Source of the DNA: Ramlibacter sp.
GTDB lineage: Bacteria; Pseudomonadota; Gammaproteobacteria; Burkholderiales; Burkholderiaceae
Assembly: GCA_014376915.1 (NCBI GenBank)
Contig: JACMQP010000332.1
Coordinates: 1-5,898, forward strand
Direction: 5' to 3'
Length of the DNA: 5,898 nt
Below are positions 1-5,898 of the stretch, piece after piece. A model generated the notes under the pieces. It was given only the letters and a program-made list of their open reading frames with translations. It was not told the DNA's origin and made no database searches. Positions within the stretch are counted from its first letter, which is position 1; each line of letters begins with the position of its first letter. The translations under genes and the position numbers were made by a program.

Positions 1-125
1 AAGCCCGCGCCCAGCGCCAGCCCGGCCGCCAAGTCGGCCGAATACAGGATGCGAGGCTCCATCACCTCCGCCACCGGCACCGTTCGATGGGCCCGGCCAG
101 CGGTCACTCGGCGGAGCCAGAACAT
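1..125 (-). CDS. LEPR-XLL domain protein, N-terminal 41 codons only (runs off left edge)
   Basis: Only the first 41 residues are in the window, and the frame is open to the edge. The ATG at 125-123 follows the adaptor stop after 19 bases and has an AGGCAGG ribosome binding site 7 bases upstream. The protein starts MFWLRRVTAGRAHR and has the motif MEPRILYSADL at residues 22-32 (bases 62-30). This matches the LEPR-XLL signature (L-E-P-R-x-L-[LFY]-S-A-D), known at the N-terminus of very large repetitive, cadherin-like or calcium-binding proteins, often thousands of residues long. A basic stretch (R5, R6, R11, H13, R14) precedes the motif, and a small-residue Ala/Gly/Leu run follows it. There is no classical signal peptide with a hydrophobic core before the motif. 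As last gene of an apparent export operon it is probably the cargo. The family call is fairly firm from the motif; the full length, repeats and function cannot be seen. The leading Leu of the signature is Met here. Confidence 0.75.
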   Translation of the reverse strand, partial: MFWLRRVTAGRAHRTVPVAEVMEPRILYSADLAAGLALGAG

Positions 126-132
126 GATCAGG

Positions 133-139
133 CCTGCCT
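133..139 (-). promoter_or_regulatory. Ribosome binding site of the LEPR-XLL gene
   Basis: The minus strand reads AGGCAGG, then 7 bases, then the ATG at 125. This is the clearest Shine-Dalgarno-like sequence at any of the junctions. It supports the ATG at 125 as the start and suggests that this gene is initiated independently, whereas the upstream genes overlap and appear translationally coupled. Confidence 0.5.
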
Positions 140-144
140 GTTCT

Positions 145-1056
145 TCACGGCTTGCGGCCAAGCGACATCATCGCCGGGTCCAGCTGGAGGCGCAGGGATG
201 TGTCAACGCCCTTGACCGCGGGCCGCGCCGAAGGCTTGTTCGACGGCAACGGGCTGCTGTCGCCCAGATCGGCCTTGCAGCGCAGCCCGGCGGGCAGCGA
301 GAAATCGGCGTTCGGCAGCTCGGCGCGGATCCGGAACGTGTTGCTGGCGCCATCGATCAGTCGGTCCACCACGGTGACGCGCGCCAGCCGGGGCGATGCA
401 CCCGGGAAATCGGGCGTGACCGTCACCGTCATGCCGGTGCGCACGGCCGAGAAATATGTCGACGGCAACACCACCTCGACCCGCAACGGATTGACCACCG
501 CCACCCGGAACATCGCCTTTTCCTCGACCCGCTCGCCGGCCGACAGGAAGCGGTCGGCCACCACGCCGTTGACCGGGCTGCGGATCGTGCGCAGCCCGAG
601 CTGGGCCTGCGCCAGTTCCTGCTCGCGGGCAAAGATGCCGCGTTGCTCGCGAGCCTGCGCCAGCCGCTGTTCCGCCACCTGGAAGTCGGCCCGGGCCTGC
701 TCCAGCGCCTGGCCGGAGATGAATTGCTGATCGGCCAGGTCCTTGGCCCGCACCAGCTTCTGGCGCGCCAGTTCGACCGTCGCCTCGGCGGCTTTGAGTT
801 CACCAATGGCCTGCGCCTTGCTGGCGGCAACGGCGACGGACTGCCGCTCGACATCGGCGCGCAGGGTGGCCAGCGGCTGGCCGGCCCTGACCAGGTCGCC
901 GCGCTCGACCAGCGTCGATTCGATGACGCCGATGACCGGGCTGCCGATGTCCGAGGTCCGGAATGGTTCGATCAGGCAACCGAGCGGTTGCGCCGCGAAA
1001 GCCGCCCCGAGCGGGAGCAGCAGCGCGGCAACCAGAAGACGATTAGTGTGTTTCAT
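145..1056 (-). CDS. Exported HlyD/RND-type periplasmic adaptor (membrane fusion) protein
   Basis: This 303-residue protein has a standard signal peptide: MKHTNR, a hydrophobic core (LLVAALLLPLGAA) and a likely cleavage after AFA near residue 21. It should therefore be periplasmic, with no lasting membrane anchor. The order is that of membrane fusion proteins: first lipoyl half (about 36-66, SPVIGVIESTLVERGDLVRAG), a helical hairpin rich in Ala/Gln/Glu/Lys/Arg (about 68-152), second lipoyl half (about 157-185, TIRSPVNGVVADRFLSAGERV), then a beta-barrel region (about 188-265) and a polar Pro/Ser-rich tail. It probably links an inner-membrane device to an outer-membrane channel; no transporter partner is encoded here. 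C27 in the GCLIEP segment is not in a good lipobox (Pro at -3) and lies after the hydrophobic core, so I do not call it a lipoprotein. The start ATG at 1056 gives the signal peptide and overlaps the SecA-like gene by 14 bases. The family is secure, the partners unknown. Confidence 0.9.
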   Translation of the reverse strand: MKHTNRLLVAALLLPLGAAFAAQPLGCLIEPFRTSDIGSPVIGVIESTLVERGDLVRAGQPLATLRADVERQSVAVAASKAQAIGELKAAEATVELARQKLVRAKDLADQQFISGQALEQARADFQVAEQRLAQAREQRGIFAREQELAQAQLGLRTIRSPVNGVVADRFLSAGERVEEKAMFRVAVVNPLRVEVVLPSTYFSAVRTGMTVTVTPDFPGASPRLARVTVVDRLIDGASNTFRIRAELPNADFSLPAGLRCKADLGDSSPLPSNKPSARPAVKGVDTSLRLQLDPAMMSLGRKP

Positions 1057-2986
1057 GAAGGACCTGTCGGCTGAACGTCAACTCGCGGTCGTGGCATTCC
1101 GAGACTCGGCACAGTGTTACACGTTGTTTCCTTTGCGTAAAGGACTCGATGGCCTGCGCCAGCCGAACGCCAGGCCAGGACAACACTGCCGGGCAGCCCA
1201 GGCGGGCGACCAGCCGGTGCCACCAAGCTGGCCACCAGCGCTGCAGCAGGGGAAAGTCCAGCGCCAGCAGGGTCTGGGTGCTGCCGGGCTGGTCCTGGCG
1301 GCCGGCACGGCCGAGAAACTGTCGGTCGATGCGCGCCGATGCATTATGTTGGCAGAGGATGATGTGTAAACCGCCCAAGATGACAACCGCAGGCGCCAGC
1401 AGGATGTCCGTCCCGCGCCCCGCCATGCTGGTGGCAACAGTGATCCGGCCCGGTTGGCCGGCCATCGCGATCAGTTGGCTCTCGTCGCTGTCCTGGCGTG
1501 CGTTCAGGACCTGATGTTCCAGGCCGCCTTTGGTGAGCACCTGTGACAGGGCCTCCGACTGGGCCACTGAATCGGTCCCGATCAGCACCGGACGACCCGC
1601 AGCGCCCAGCGCCGTGGCGCTGGCAGCGACTGCTTGCCACAGCGTGGCGCTGTCGGGGAACAGGCGGGCCGGCAGGCGCGCCACGCGGCGCGGCGTGCGC
1701 GGCGCAACCACCACCACACCCAGCCCATACACAGCCTTGAATTCGCCCCGCGCCTCGGCCAACGTGCCGCTGGCGCCGGCCAATCGCAGATAGCGCGGGA
1801 AAAAACGCTGAAACGTGATCTGTGTCACTGTCGAGTTGCTCTGCGTGGCGGCAACGCCTTCCTTCAGTTCCACCAGTTGATGCAACCCTTGCGACCACGC
1901 CCGGCCCGGCGCCGCCCGGCCCGTGGTTTCGTCGATCAGTTGCACCTGGCCTTCGCGCACCACGTAATCGTGGTCGCGACGCAGCACCAGCAAGGCCGTC
2001 AGCGCCAGTTCCAGCGCCGCCTGCCGGTGGGCGCGGTGGCCGTACAGCGGATGGCTGGCCGCCGGCCACTGCGCCAGCCGCTGGGCTCCGGCAGCCGTGA
2101 GTTCGATCCGGCGGCCGTCAGCGCTGCGCCGGAAGTCCGCACCCTCCTGCAGCCGGCGCGCCAGAGCCAGCGCGCCGCGATGGAACTGCGCTTCCGGCAG
2201 CGCGCCGCCGCCTTGCGACAGCACCAGCGGCATCCGGGCCTCGTCGATCAGCACCGTGTCGGCCTCGTCGATGATGGCCATGCACAGGCCGCGCAACACC
2301 GGAGGTTCGGACGGCCGCGCGGTCTCCAGCCGGCGCGCGCGCTGCTCCAGCGCCGACAGATCGGCCGTGCGCGCTAGGCCGTCGCGCAGGTAGTCGAAGG
2401 CCAGTTCCTTGGCGGTGCAGTAGGTCACGTCGCAGCCATAAGCGTGGCGCCGGTCGGCGGCCAGCAGCTGCTGCGTCACGCAATCCACCCGCAGCCCGAG
2501 CAGCGTGAAGAACGGCCGCAACTGCTCTGCATCGCGCTGCGCCAGGTAATCATTGGCGGTGATCACATGCACCGGCGTGCGGCCCAGCGCGGCCACCGCC
2601 GCGGCGAGCGCGATGGCAGCGGTCTTGCCCTCGCCGGTGGCCATCTCGACCAGCCGGTTGTCCAGCAGCACGCGCGCCGCCAGCAACTGTTGGCGATGCG
2701 GCTGGAATCCGAGCGCCTGCGCGAGCGCGCTCTGCGCGATTCCGAAGGCCTCCAGCAACCAGTCGTCGCCGTCCGCCGGCAGCAGCCGCAGCGCCTGCAA
2801 CCGCTGCGGCAAGCCGGCGGTGGACAGCAGCGGCAAGCCCGCCGCGGCATCGACGAAACGGTGCAGCCGGCGGCGCGACAAGGGGGATGGCCGCCGGGCC
2901 GGCGTGCCGTGCAGCGAGCGCTCCGGATAGTCGCCCCAGACCACCCCGGGAAAAGGCCAGCCGCTCGGATCGTCCAGCGCGGTCAC
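1043..2986 (-). CDS. SecA-like translocation ATPase, compact form lacking most C-terminal domains
   Basis: A 647-residue cytoplasmic ATPase clearly homologous to SecA. Visible in order: Q-motif-like LGFQPHRQQ (92-100); Walker A MATGEGKT (115-122; SecA has MRTGEGKT); VHVITANDYLAQRDAE (139-154); CDVTYCTAKELAFDYLRD (185-202); Walker B region IIDEADTVLIDEAR (238-251); DHDYVVREG and IDETTGRAAPGRAWSQGLHQ (338-370); QITFQRFFPRYLRLAGASGT (389-408); PVLIGTDS (466-473); ATSMAGRGTDI (518-528); GGLHII (538-543); arginine-finger region RIDRQFLGRAGRQ (552-564). The preprotein cross-linking domain is short, about 85 residues between 252 and 337 against roughly 150 in E. coli SecA. Only about 80 residues follow GRAGRQ, so the helical wing, two-helix finger and metal-binding tail of the roughly 900-residue housekeeping SecA are missing. 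I chose GTG at 2986, which forms a GTGA overlap with the upstream stop; the frame also opens to 3085, but that part is only out-of-frame M50 sequence. Probably a dedicated paralogue rather than the housekeeping secA, which is inferred from context. Confidence 0.92.
   Translation of the reverse strand: MTALDDPSGWPFPGVVWGDYPERSLHGTPARRPSPLSRRRLHRFVDAAAGLPLLSTAGLPQRLQALRLLPADGDDWLLEAFGIAQSALAQALGFQPHRQQLLAARVLLDNRLVEMATGEGKTAAIALAAAVAALGRTPVHVITANDYLAQRDAEQLRPFFTLLGLRVDCVTQQLLAADRRHAYGCDVTYCTAKELAFDYLRDGLARTADLSALEQRARRLETARPSEPPVLRGLCMAIIDEADTVLIDEARMPLVLSQGGGALPEAQFHRGALALARRLQEGADFRRSADGRRIELTAAGAQRLAQWPAASHPLYGHRAHRQAALELALTALLVLRRDHDYVVREGQVQLIDETTGRAAPGRAWSQGLHQLVELKEGVAATQSNSTVTQITFQRFFPRYLRLAGASGTLAEARGEFKAVYGLGVVVVAPRTPRRVARLPARLFPDSATLWQAVAASATALGAAGRPVLIGTDSVAQSEALSQVLTKGGLEHQVLNARQDSDESQLIAMAGQPGRITVATSMAGRGTDILLAPAVVILGGLHIILCQHNASARIDRQFLGRAGRQDQPGSTQTLLALDFPLLQRWWPAWWHRLVARLGCPAVLSWPGVRLAQAIESFTQRKQRVTLCRVSECHDRELTFSRQVLHETH
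2983..2986 (-). promoter_or_regulatory. GTGA stop/start overlap between the M50-type and SecA-like genes
   Basis: The minus strand reads ACGTGACC. The TGA at 2985-2983 ends the upstream gene, and the GTG at 2986-2984 begins the SecA-like gene. No good Shine-Dalgarno sequence precedes the GTG (CCGACCGGCCAGAC), so re-initiation by the terminating ribosome is the likely route. This coupling would tie the amount of ATPase to that of its membrane partner. Confidence 0.65.
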
Positions 2987-5136
2987 GTCTGGCCGGTCGG
3001 GCTGAACTGCCGCACCAGCAGCTGCCGCAGCACGCGCAGCCCCTGCAGGCCCAGCGGCTCCCGCTCCAGCACCAGCTTGACCCACGCACGGCCGCCGATA
3101 TGGTCCACCGTGACGCCCGGCACCAGCACGTCCAGCAGGAACACCGGCAACTGCGTGCGCAGGCCGTCCTTGTCGGCCGGATCGACGCCCACCGGGCCGC
3201 CCTGCCGGTCGCCGAGCGCGGCGCTGGGGAGCTGGCGGGTCGCGGCCGGTGTTTCGTTGCCCAGGCTGGCCGCGTGCACAGCCAGCGGCGCTTCAGCCAG
3301 CCGGACCTCGATTGCCTGGACGCGCCCACGCACGCGCAGCAGATCTTCGTCGCGCAGCACCACCCGGACCTGCGCCGGTTCCGGCGCCAGCACGTAGCCC
3401 AGCATGGCGCCGCGTTGCGCGTAGCTGCCCGGCAGGTCGCGCTCGCGCGGCCAGACGGCGCGGCCGCCGGTGCGGGCGCGCAGCTGCAGGTCGGCCAGTT
3501 GCTGCTCGACCCGTTGCAACTCGGCGTCGTTGCGGACCAGGTCCTCGCCCAGTTCGGCGGCGCGGGTCGGATCCTGCAGCAACGCGTGGTACTGCTGCGC
3601 CATCAGGCCGGCCTTCTCGCTGTCGGTCCGGTCGCGCTGCGCGGCCAGCACCGGGTCGGCCAGCGACAACACCACGTCGCCCTCTGCCACCGGCGAGCCG
3701 TCGCGCACCATCTGCACTTCGACGAAGCCGGCTGCTTCGGCGCGCAGCTGGGCCCGTTCGGGTGGCCAGACCACGCCGCGCGCGACCACGCTGGACGGCG
3801 CCGGCACCAAGAACAACACCGCGCCCGCGCCGGCAACGATGCAGCCTGCGGCCACCAGCGCCCGGCGCTTCGCGCCCGGATCGGCCGACTCCGCCAGCGA
3901 CCGCAGCAGCGCGGCGAGCACCGCCTTGCCCAGCCACGCGAGCAGCGCCAGCGCCGCCAGCCAGCCCACCAGCCACGACTGGCGCCCAAGCCAGAACACC
4001 AGCGCGAACAGCAGCCCGATCCGGTACATCCATGAGGCGGGCGCGTACAACACCAGCCACTTCAGCTCGCCGCTGGCCAGCGCGCCGCGCGGCAAGGCGG
4101 TGTTGCCGCCGACCAGCCGTCGCCACTGCTCGGTCCACCAGCCCTGGCTGCGCAGCGCGAGATTGGGCAGCTGCAACGCGTCGCACAGCAGGTGGTAGCC
4201 GTCCAGCCGCAGCAGCGGATTGGCGTTGAACAGCAGCGTCGAAACCGAGCAGATCAGCAGCACCACCAGCGCGCCGTCGCGCGCAAGGCCCGGGCTGAGG
4301 ACCAGCCACGCGGCGACCGCCAGCGCCGCCAGCGCCAGTTCGACCATGATGCCGGCGGCGCTGACGATGGCGCGGTGCCGTGCGCTGGCAAAACCGTTGG
4401 CCGCACTGGCGTCGACATACGGGGCCGGCGTCAGGAACACCAGGGAAATGCCCAGTTCGTGCACTGCGCCGCCGAAGCGGCGGACCGCCATCGCATGGGC
4501 GATCTCGTGCAGCGTCTTGACGATCGGGTAGGCGATCCAGGCCAGCGCATAGCTCGATGGCGTCGCCAGCGCCCGCAGCGCCTCGGCCTTGAGCTGCGGG
4601 AAGTTCACCGCCGCGGCGAGCGTGGCCAGCGCCACCGCCAGCAGCCAGAGCGCGAACACGCTCCAGCGCCCGAGCAGCGCGGACAACGGCGCCAGCCGGT
4701 CCAGCAGCCGGGTCGGGTCGAACAGCTTCATCCGCAGCATCAGCGGGTTGACGAAGGCCCGGCGCTGGCGTTGGCCGTCCTCGTTGCGGCGCGAGAACAG
4801 CAGCGATAGCGACGGCGCGGCATCAAACTGCACCATGCCAGCGCGAACCAGCTGCGCCAGCAGCCGCAGGATGTCGTCCTGGGTCGGCGCGTCGTCGCCC
4901 TCGCGTTCCAGTAGCAGCTGCCACAGGCTAGCCACCGTCGCATTGCCGTTGCAGCGGCCGGCGAACGCATACGCGGCCGGATTCAGGCGCAGCTGCCGGC
5001 CGGAGCCGGGATCGACCAGGATGTGCCAGACCTGGTCGCGCACCTGATGCCGCACGATCTTCAACCCCGCTGCCAGGCTCGGCTTGAGGGGCGCGACCCG
5101 GTACCAGGATCCGCTGACGAGCGGCTCGGCAGCCAT
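2983..5136 (-). CDS. PqqD-like / M50 zinc metalloprotease / HlyD-lipoyl fusion membrane protein
   Basis: A 717-residue, three-part membrane protein. Residues about 15-105 resemble a PqqD-like winged-helix domain: a beta section with WHILVDPGSGRQLRLNP, then helices ending in DDILRLLAQLVRAGMV. In peptide-maturation enzymes such domains bind leader peptides. Residues about 155-410 hold several hydrophobic segments with the M50 motifs HEIAH (210-214; catalytic Glu211, zinc ligands His210 and His214) and NANPLLRLDGYH (304-315; probable third ligand Asp312). A further membrane segment (about 426-445) precedes a lipoyl/HlyD-like part: QLRAEAAGFVEVQMVRDG (463-480), a helical stretch (about 496-556) and a beta-rich C-terminus (580-717). 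This arrangement is known in proteins annotated as M50 peptidases or HlyD-family adaptors. All catalytic residues seem intact, so it could be an active intramembrane protease or a zinc-bound scaffold. The ATG at 5136 directly follows the upstream stop; a weak GGTGG lies 8 bases before it. Its position beside adaptors, a SecA-like ATPase and a LEPR-XLL gene suggests a substrate-handling role. Confidence 0.9.
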   Translation of the reverse strand: MAAEPLVSGSWYRVAPLKPSLAAGLKIVRHQVRDQVWHILVDPGSGRQLRLNPAAYAFAGRCNGNATVASLWQLLLEREGDDAPTQDDILRLLAQLVRAGMVQFDAAPSLSLLFSRRNEDGQRQRRAFVNPLMLRMKLFDPTRLLDRLAPLSALLGRWSVFALWLLAVALATLAAAVNFPQLKAEALRALATPSSYALAWIAYPIVKTLHEIAHAMAVRRFGGAVHELGISLVFLTPAPYVDASAANGFASARHRAIVSAAGIMVELALAALAVAAWLVLSPGLARDGALVVLLICSVSTLLFNANPLLRLDGYHLLCDALQLPNLALRSQGWWTEQWRRLVGGNTALPRGALASGELKWLVLYAPASWMYRIGLLFALVFWLGRQSWLVGWLAALALLAWLGKAVLAALLRSLAESADPGAKRRALVAAGCIVAGAGAVLFLVPAPSSVVARGVVWPPERAQLRAEAAGFVEVQMVRDGSPVAEGDVVLSLADPVLAAQRDRTDSEKAGLMAQQYHALLQDPTRAAELGEDLVRNDAELQRVEQQLADLQLRARTGGRAVWPRERDLPGSYAQRGAMLGYVLAPEPAQVRVVLRDEDLLRVRGRVQAIEVRLAEAPLAVHAASLGNETPAATRQLPSAALGDRQGGPVGVDPADKDGLRTQLPVFLLDVLVPGVTVDHIGGRAWVKLVLEREPLGLQGLRVLRQLLVRQFSPTGQT

Positions 5137-5139
5137 CTA
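5134..5139 (-). other. Abutting in-frame stop/start (TAG-ATG) between adaptor and M50-type genes
   Basis: On the minus strand the upstream TAG (5139-5137) is followed at once by the ATG (5136-5134) of the next gene. Both genes are in the same reading frame. Termination and re-initiation at this point would couple the two proteins. Occasional read-through of the single TAG would make a fused adaptor-protease, which is possible in principle but unsupported by any read-through signal I can see. Confidence 0.7.
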
Positions 5140-5898
5140 GAGCGCCACCGTCCAGAGCGACAGGCGCAGCCACGCCGCGGCGCGATGAAACAACAGCCAG
5201 CCGAGGCTGCGCTCGCCGGCTTCGATCTTTGCGACGCCGCTCAGGCCTGGCCGCAGGTTGGCCTGCACTTCGTCCGGCGTGGCCTCCACCTCGAAGTAGT
5301 TGCGGCCGTCCGCAGCGGTGGCCACCGGCACGATCCGCCGGGTGGTGAAGGCGAGCGGCTGTTCGGGCCGGGCGGCCAGCGCCAACTGCCCTTTCTGACC
5401 TGGATGGATGGCGGCGATGTCGGTCTCGTCCACCTCCAAGATCAGCCGGAAGCTGTCGTTGGGCGCCAGCACCATCAGCACTTCGCCGCGCTGCACCGGC
5501 GCACCCAGCGACTGCGACAGGTCGCCCTTGATCACGATGCCGTCGAACGGCGCCTGTAATTTCGTGCGCTCGAGCTGCGTCTCGGCCAGCGTCAGCAGGG
5601 CCTGGGTCTCGGCCGCCTTGGACTGGCTGATCACCATCTGCGTGCGGTCGTTGCGCGCCTGCGCCGCGCGGTAGCCGCCTTCGTGCTGGCGCAGTTCGGC
5701 TTCGCGCCGCTTGCGTTCCAGCTCCAGGTCTTGCGACGACAGTTGCGCCAGCACCTGGCCGGTGACGACGCGGTCGCCGGGCCGGACGTTGGCCTGCTGC
5801 AGGAAGCCGTCGGCGGCGGCCACCACCGCCCGCTGCACCGAGCCCTCCAGCCGCGCCGGCGCGCTCACCCGCCACGGCAAGGGCAGTGCCAGCAGGAC
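5137..5898 (-). CDS. HlyD-family membrane fusion/adaptor protein, C-terminal 253 residues (start lies beyond right edge)
   Basis: The frame is open to the window edge. The visible part begins VLLALPLPWRVSAPARLEG, the end of an N-terminal membrane anchor followed by the periplasmic portion. A TTG at 5880 could be read as a start but lies inside this anchor, so the true start is outside. Counting from the first visible residue: first lipoyl half about 28-52 (AADGFLQQANVRPGDRVVTG), a short helical hairpin about 54-113 rich in Glu/Arg/Gln, second lipoyl half about 114-143 (LQAPFDGIVIKGDLSQSLG), a beta-barrel region about 147-228 including EVDETDIAAIHPGQKG, and an amphipathic hydrophobic C-terminus (GWLLFHRAAAWLRLSLW). 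Unlike the second adaptor it appears membrane-anchored rather than secreted. Proteins of this type commonly sit just upstream of M50-type PqqD fusion genes, as here, and the two probably form one inner-membrane complex. The family is secure; substrate and partner are inferred. Confidence 0.9.
   Translation of the reverse strand, partial: VLLALPLPWRVSAPARLEGSVQRAVVAAADGFLQQANVRPGDRVVTGQVLAQLSSQDLELERKRREAELRQHEGGYRAAQARNDRTQMVISQSKAAETQALLTLAETQLERTKLQAPFDGIVIKGDLSQSLGAPVQRGEVLMVLAPNDSFRLILEVDETDIAAIHPGQKGQLALAARPEQPLAFTTRRIVPVATAADGRNYFEVEATPDEVQANLRPGLSGVAKIEAGERSLGWLLFHRAAAWLRLSLWTVAL

Follow-up and report, generated by a model that had tools for sequence, protein, structure and literature searches.

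Gene organization of the window

We analyzed a 5,898-nt stretch of DNA from Ramlibacter sp. (contig JACMQP010000332.1 of assembly GCA_014376915.1, positions 1–5,898; hereafter, the window). All five of its genes lie on the minus strand and encode a membrane fusion protein (MFP1), a PqqD-M50-lipoyl protein, a SecA-like ATPase, a second membrane fusion protein (MFP2), and the start of a LEPR-XLL protein. We consider these genes here as a putative export module, with the LEPR-XLL protein as its likely cargo. The features of the window are as follows:

5137..5898, minus strand: MFP1, HlyD/RND-type membrane fusion protein (HlyD_3, 1.7e-17; HlyD_D23, 2.4e-13), 5' end cut
2983..5136, minus strand: PqqD-M50-lipoyl/MFP protein, 717 amino acids (PqqD, 4.7e-9; NF041824, 2.4e-43, below cut-off)
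4825..5088, minus strand: domain of the M50 protein resembling PqqD and the RiPP (ribosomally synthesized and post-translationally modified peptide) recognition element (RRE), residues 17–104
4495..4509, minus strand: HExxH motif of the M50 protein, residues 210–214
about 4201–4203, minus strand: Asp of the second M50 motif (D312)
3004..3804, minus strand: periplasmic-adaptor part of the M50 protein (lipoyl, hairpin, barrel), residues 445–711
1043..2986, minus strand: SecA-like ATPase, 647 amino acids, GTG start; an in-frame GTG at 3085 is a possible alternative start
2621..2638, minus strand: Walker A motif TGEGKT of the SecA-like ATPase
145..1056, minus strand: MFP2, RND/HlyD-type adaptor with a signal-peptide-like N-terminus (TIGR01730, 118.4 bits; cut-off 94.9)
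1..125, minus strand: start of the LEPR-XLL protein, ATG at 125, running off the window (NF012209, 24.7 bits; cut-off 17)
33..62, minus strand: MEPRILYSAD tag of the LEPR-XLL protein, residues 22–31, a candidate export address

The ATG of the M50 gene directly abuts the MFP1 stop codon, the M50 stop codon overlaps the GTG of the SecA-like gene in the sequence GTGA, the SecA-like gene and MFP2 overlap by 14 nt, and a 19-nt gap separates the MFP2 stop codon from the ATG of the LEPR-XLL gene. The first-pass annotation of this DNA had described five same-strand genes with overlapping or abutting ends, which holds apart from the gap before the LEPR-XLL frame, and its gene identities (a SecA paralogue, a PqqD-M50 fusion, two MFPs, and a LEPR-XLL start) were confirmed by family-model matches. 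Because only the first 41 residues of the LEPR-XLL protein are present, its size is not visible in the window. No ABC exporter ATPase was found among the family matches of the window proteins.

PqqD-M50 protein and adaptors

The Peptidase_M50 match to the M50 protein was under the cut-off (19.1 of 27.2 bits), and the best NCBIfam model for the M50 part, the intramembrane daptide metalloprotease NF041824, scored 148.7 bits against a cut-off of 300. In the alignment and in the AlphaFold model of the 717-residue protein (pLDDT 85.1, pTM 0.69), the HExxH and distal Asp motifs characteristic of M50/S2P proteases were located in transmembrane helices. H210, E211, H214, and D312 were invariant in a 70-row alignment (A3), which drew on 69 of the 80 loci described below (11 were omitted because of partial or odd-length matches or, in L078, a stop), and a regular expression matched the second M50 motif in 57 of the 70 rows. 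The N-terminal PqqD domain is predicted to adopt an RRE-type winged-helix fold, which resembles leader-bound lasso-peptide RREs. HlyD_3 and HlyD_D23 were matched on both MFP1 and MFP2. A full-length relative of MFP1 (L008) carries an N-terminal GAF domain (4.1e-10), a region that would fall beyond the cut 5' end of the window gene, and the signal-peptide-like N-terminus of MFP2 has a hydropathy peak (KD17) of 2.06.

SecA-like ATPase

The SecA-like protein matched SecA_DEAD (1.2e-75), P-loop_SecA (2.1e-38), and SecA_PP_bind (1.9e-22), and it scored under the cut-offs of the housekeeping SecA models (TIGR00963, 435.9 of 800 bits; NF009538, 436.3 of 814 bits) and far under those of the SecA2 models (312.7–412.4 bits vs 725–1100). 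The nucleotide-binding domains and the clamp are kept, the C-terminus is approximately 270–300 residues shorter than that of full-length housekeeping SecA, and the protein ends ahead of the wing and two-helix-finger region of SecA, which we take to be the C-terminal region that it lacks. The Walker A sequence T-G-E-G-K-T did not vary across alignment A4, which comprised 69 loci with a BLAST match, and among 70 SecA-like rows, regular expressions matched MAGRGTDI in 66, motif VI in 65, and the arginine-finger motif in 65. In a quick tree with few references and arbitrary rooting, the SecA-like clade was sister to two actinobacterial SecA2 proteins (support 0.992). This position agrees in part with the earlier suggestion of SecA2 systems as a precedent, but the SecA2 models were missed by far, and membership of the SecA2 family was rejected because their cut-offs were not reached. 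Three SecA matches in viral_contigs, which had no recognised M50 or MFP neighbours in the list of open reading frames (ORFs), were set aside as ordinary SecA.

Conservation of the neighbourhood

A genome scan with a seven-row M50 alignment identified at least 529 stretches encoding a relative, the best 80 of which were used. By record title, these 80 loci include representatives of Beta- and Gammaproteobacteria, Nitrospira, Desulfobacteraceae, Desulfobulbaceae, Omnitrophota, and one Deferribacteres, and the nearest named relatives of the window, among the matches listed, were Ramlibacter, Caenimonas, and Comamonadaceae. A SecA-like frame ended within 3.5 kb after the M50 gene in 74 of the 76 loci with room for one, and the genomes of the other two (L057 and L064) encode SecA-like genes elsewhere. 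MFP1 was present in 74 and MFP2 in 62 of the 80 loci. The neighbourhood, whose conservation across genomes had been set as a test by the first-pass annotation, is thus conserved across phyla. Among plasmid records (six loci chosen from 131 hits, which together with the window form alignments A1 and A2), the MFP1, M50, and SecA-like genes were consecutive in all six and MFP2 was present in four; an annotated gene of 26–39 kb adjoined the gene set in four.

Inspection of the flanks, which had been suggested as a search for an outer-membrane channel or an ABC ATPase, yielded the former in part: a TolC-like neighbour occurred in 13 of the 80 loci (by similarity to one TolC), the window itself having none. 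In contrast, neither a motif scan nor phmmer with three ABC ATPases detected an ATPase of exporter size in the 80 loci, the rest of the genomes being unsearched. The phmmer search recovered both annotated control genes, and two smaller ABC ORFs lay within the 80 loci, outside the operon core. The reported lack of an ABC exporter ATPase in the window was borne out, and an ABC exporter beside the locus was rejected on the outcome of these two scans.

LEPR proteins and their association with the module

Long, arginine-poor frames rich in D, G, T, N, and S were found in 40 of the 80 loci. A LEPR-type motif lay near the N-terminus in all 21 adjoining cargo-type frames with the start in view (L047, with a run of N, and L078, with a distant ORF, were omitted, and L010 was added despite the size filter). 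Its variants included LEAR, FESR, LEGR, LENR, and LERR; the E and R of the motif were required by the search pattern, so their invariance is by construction. Sixteen of these frames run beyond the fetched sequence, and five are complete. NF012209 also exceeded its cut-off in 18 of 19 genomes sampled from the 64 loci that were motif-less by the first pattern. Four complete plasmid-borne cargo proteins measured 8,847–12,918 amino acids and contained two to six cysteines, some giant LEPR proteins bore RTX repeats, and the longest open frame with the tag extended over 21,117 codons (G300:C252; its first part is L169:2644-18999).

The LEPR-XLL protein had been described as lacking an ordinary signal peptide, and hydropathy supports this, with no clear hydrophobic signal peptide: the peak of the leader and motif was at most 0.96 in 33 sequences, and that of the first 80 residues of the four giants was 0.78–1.56 (highest in Methylosinus), compared with 2.06 at the start of MFP2. 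A shared C-terminal secretion signal was set aside after the four whole giants were compared by eye, with no common signal seen.

That the LEPR proteins and the SecA/M50/MFP module belong together is strongly supported. Cultured species with both in their genomes include Ramlibacter pallidus (L012) and Marinobacterium rhizophilum DSM 18822 (L067). In 185 genomes of the class of Ramlibacter pallidus (G004), which we take to be Gammaproteobacteria in GTDB, LEPR occurred in 16, SecA-like in 12, and both in 11 (p = 3e-13, Fisher test), and M50 relatives of at least 200 bits occurred in 22, 14 of which had LEPR. In 147 genomes of the class of a Desulfobacteraceae metagenome-assembled genome (G204, L063), the corresponding numbers among the matches listed were 19, 23, and 16 (p = 2e-13), the two SecA-like matches of G326 lying outside these. 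In both samples, the SecA-like calls were judged from score and frame length, the completeness of the genomes is not known, many genomes had their first-look candidates scored only in part, and the Fisher tests ignore relatedness and completeness. In control genomes, the LEPR model matched none of 14 at E 0.01 and one of 14 at 0.05.

Seven genomes of the 147-genome sample had SecA-like without a LEPR match. The contig stops at or close to the operon in G277, G344, and G267 and just beyond DUF3467, a frequent site of the giant, in G269 and G255; that of G278 holds no more than the C-terminal portion of a cargo-type frame. The seventh, G309, is one of the exceptions described below. LEPR without SecA-like was found in G058, G082, G126, G125, and G183 of the 185-genome sample and in G292 of the other, together with weak matches in G207 and G315. 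The contig of G058 ends inside the M50 gene, with MFP2 and LEPR on another contig, whereas LEPR lies on a 3.1-kb contig in G082 and in a frame of 99 codons in G126.

Relationship to known systems

A module of SecA, M50, and HlyD, with SecA as its proposed ATPase, has been known since 2015 (PMC4452313). In their passages on this module, Kamneva et al. (2015) reported it from PVC bacteria, Proteobacteria, Nitrospirae, and Chlorobi, proposed that SecA acts instead of an ABC ATPase and M50 as the pore, and called its broader role "completely unknown" (PMC4452313). The parts named there are SecA_DEAD with the wing-scaffold wholly or partly lost, M50 plus HlyD, GAF-HlyD, HlyD/biotin-lipoyl, and sometimes OEP (PMC4452313). 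The window matches this description in its SecA_DEAD protein without the full wing-scaffold, the adjacent M50 protein with HlyD and transmembrane regions, and the HlyD/biotin-lipoyl protein MFP2. The words PqqD, LEPR, giant, RTX, and adhesin are absent from the main text of that paper (PMC4452313), and we found no report linking the module to LEPR proteins or to an RRE in the open-access PMC literature, preprints excluded. The literature passages found to name LEPR-XLL mention no exporter, and one of them concerns a Vibrio protein, about 8000 residues long, that bears LEPR-XLL at its N-terminus and RTX at its C-terminus. New here are the LEPR proteins as the likely cargo of the module, with the tag as their likely address, and the predicted RRE-type fold on the M50 protein.

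The module shares with type I secretion (HlyB/HlyD/TolC) the HlyD-family adaptors, a TolC-like gene in some loci, and an acidic repeat cargo (RTX in some) without a clear signal peptide, but it differs in that a SecA-type ATPase and an M50 membrane protein are found instead of an ABC exporter, and in that the shared element of the cargo is N-terminal. Accessory SecA2 systems tie a SecA paralogue to large surface-type proteins. The module resembles them in this link and in its position in the tree, whereas its SecA-like protein falls under the model cut-offs and has a shorter C-terminus, and MFPs and a LEPR cargo without a clear signal peptide are present. The likeness to RREs (lasso B1 proteins, PqqD) lies in the predicted N-terminal fold and in a linked protein with a conserved N-terminal motif; however, the domain here forms a single protein with an M50 protease and an adaptor, and the partner is a long protein rather than a short peptide. 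Finally, the M50 protein has the HExxH intramembrane protease core of the NF041824 daptide metalloprotease, but reaches half of its cut-off score (148.7/300) and has additional PqqD and MFP domains.

Proposed export mechanism and alternatives

On balance, we lean towards the view that the window encodes the greater part of an exporter dedicated to large, repetitive, and often giant proteins, with an RRE reader, a SecA-like motor, and an M50/MFP/TolC path. That the module exports LEPR proteins is quite probable; the roles of the SecA-like protein as the motor and of the RRE domain as the leader reader are each favoured with less assurance. In such an exporter, the PqqD/RRE-like domain of the M50 protein would bind the basic N-terminus and LEPRxLxSAD tag of the cargo in the cytosol, and the SecA-like ATPase, without a wing and two-helix-finger region, would push the chain. 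The membrane part of the M50 protein would form or gate the inner-membrane passage, and the protein may also cleave the leader, while MFP1, MFP2, and the adaptor domain of the M50 protein itself would span the periplasm to a TolC-type channel.

Several observations weigh against this reading. The RRE-like structural match ties with an unrelated methyltransferase domain and is absent among the best 50 Foldseek rows, and Pfam PqqD was not detected in either of the two divergent M50 proteins tested (L142 and L139). The cargo is not always giant, because the five complete frames span 797, 907, 908, 2,308, and 2,390 codons; two further LEPR frames at contig ends show only approximately 300 codons. 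Three genomes (G125, G168, and G118) each have one SecA of housekeeping size and no SecA-like gene, and they encode MFPs, a divergent M50 protein, a LEPR-like protein, and an outer-membrane factor, which Pfam identified as OEP in G125 and which was recognized by eye in G168 and G118. Their LEPR-like proteins carry LEPRIMLDAA (G125, 2,518+ codons, on another contig), LEPRMMFDGA (G168, 2,025 codons), and LEQRVVLDAA (G118, 843 codons), the last two being recognized by pattern only, under the NF012209 cut-off. Nor was a SecA-like gene found in G183, which has a divergent M50 protein and a 7,459-codon LEPR frame, or in G292, which has a LEPR frame (L168:3-4772). On the other side, the SecA-like operons of G014 and G309 border proteins whose N-termini resemble signal peptides and carry no LEPR motif, that of G014 with FG-GAP repeats (L147:40-6642) and that of G309 in a frame whose coordinates give about 1,083 codons (L186:17180-18199 with L167:3-2429). 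In L027 (G003), the SecA-like frame has 524 amino acids, and no LEPR match exceeded the cut-off.

Four more genomes with M50 relatives (G106, G122, G159, and G044) yielded no SecA-like gene, and G066 has a divergent 573-amino-acid SecA-like gene beside M50, which fell below the threshold and outside the count of 12. The M50-adaptor conduit is thus the constant part, which SecA-like and LEPR accompany in the main clade, although each has exceptions. The first-pass annotation had suggested the SecA-like protein as the energy source of the adaptors. The same idea has been published (PMC4452313), but SecA-less sets with LEPR-like proteins exist, and SecA as the energy source is therefore not established. 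The SecA-less relatives probably share a similar conduit with another energy source.

The alternative that survives best, although we consider it rather unlikely, is a hybrid in which the accessory SecA-like protein feeds the cargo into SecYEG, perhaps with the housekeeping SecA, and the MFPs and TolC serve only to cross the outer membrane. The SecA fold with its conserved ATPase motifs, the tree position beside SecA2 (support 0.992), and the signal-peptide-like starts of the proteins adjoining the operons of G014 and G309 are consistent with this, and a housekeeping SecA could serve the SecA-less relatives. However, a clear hydrophobic signal peptide is missing from the LEPR proteins (highest KD17 1.56 vs 2.06 for MFP2), the wing/two-helix-finger region is gone from the SecA-like protein, and the gene tables of six plasmid loci, which are incomplete, list no SecY next to the operon. 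It is slightly less probable still that the SecA-like protein is an auxiliary loader and transport is powered otherwise (e.g., by calcium-driven folding outside), as in the SecA-less sets; these sets with MFPs, M50, and LEPR-like proteins do exist, but the main clade keeps the SecA-like gene in 74 of 76 loci, with Walker A invariant in A4. Least probable is that RRE, M50, and MFP act on LEPR proteins as an apparatus for maturation or sensing, in the manner of RiPP or daptide proteases, with the SecA-like protein as an unfoldase and a type I system elsewhere as the transporter: the top NCBIfam model, the invariant zinc-site residues, the RRE-like predicted fold, and the RTX repeats of some giants agree with it, whereas three adaptor-type domains and the TolC-like neighbours of some loci point to a conduit, and the 80 loci contain no exporter-size ABC ATPase, the rest of the genomes being unsearched for one.

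If the dedicated exporter is real, a SecA-type motor and RiPP-type leader recognition would be merged into a distinct export route, and RRE-leader recognition, familiar from small peptides, would address giant proteins for export. We raise only tentatively the further possibility that it constitutes a separate class of Gram-negative secretion, for cargo of up to about 20,000 residues, in which an RRE reads the LEPR leader in trans, a SecYEG-independent SecA motor without a two-helix finger drives the chain, and an intramembrane-protease conduit leads to MFPs and TolC. The published module, previously without an assigned role, gains a likely cargo and address tag, which suggests a route out of Gram-negative cells, without an ABC exporter, for nearly cysteine-free proteins of many thousand residues. 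By record names, this putative route would be shared by Beta- and Gammaproteobacteria, Nitrospira, families of Desulfobacterota, and Omnitrophota.

Neighbouring genes

SecA-less relatives with MFPs, divergent M50 proteins, and LEPR-like proteins are represented by L142, L148, and L152, with DUF4347 in L148. In G183, the gene beside the divergent M50 gene (L139:11713-13950) encodes adenylate/guanylate cyclase, HisKA, and response-regulator domains. A small DUF3467 protein of about 95–120 amino acids is encoded at the operon, in most cases upstream of MFP1, in L004, L006, L008, and L009 and in 20 of the 80 genome loci. Next to the LEPR gene or the operon, three hosts encode a hybrid histidine kinase and a GGDEF-EAL response regulator, which suggests control by cyclic di-GMP. 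These loci are as follows:

L145:739-5622: GGDEF-EAL response regulator/hybrid kinase
L155:8286-13209: GGDEF-EAL response regulator/hybrid kinase
L170:14712-18999: GGDEF-EAL response regulator/hybrid kinase

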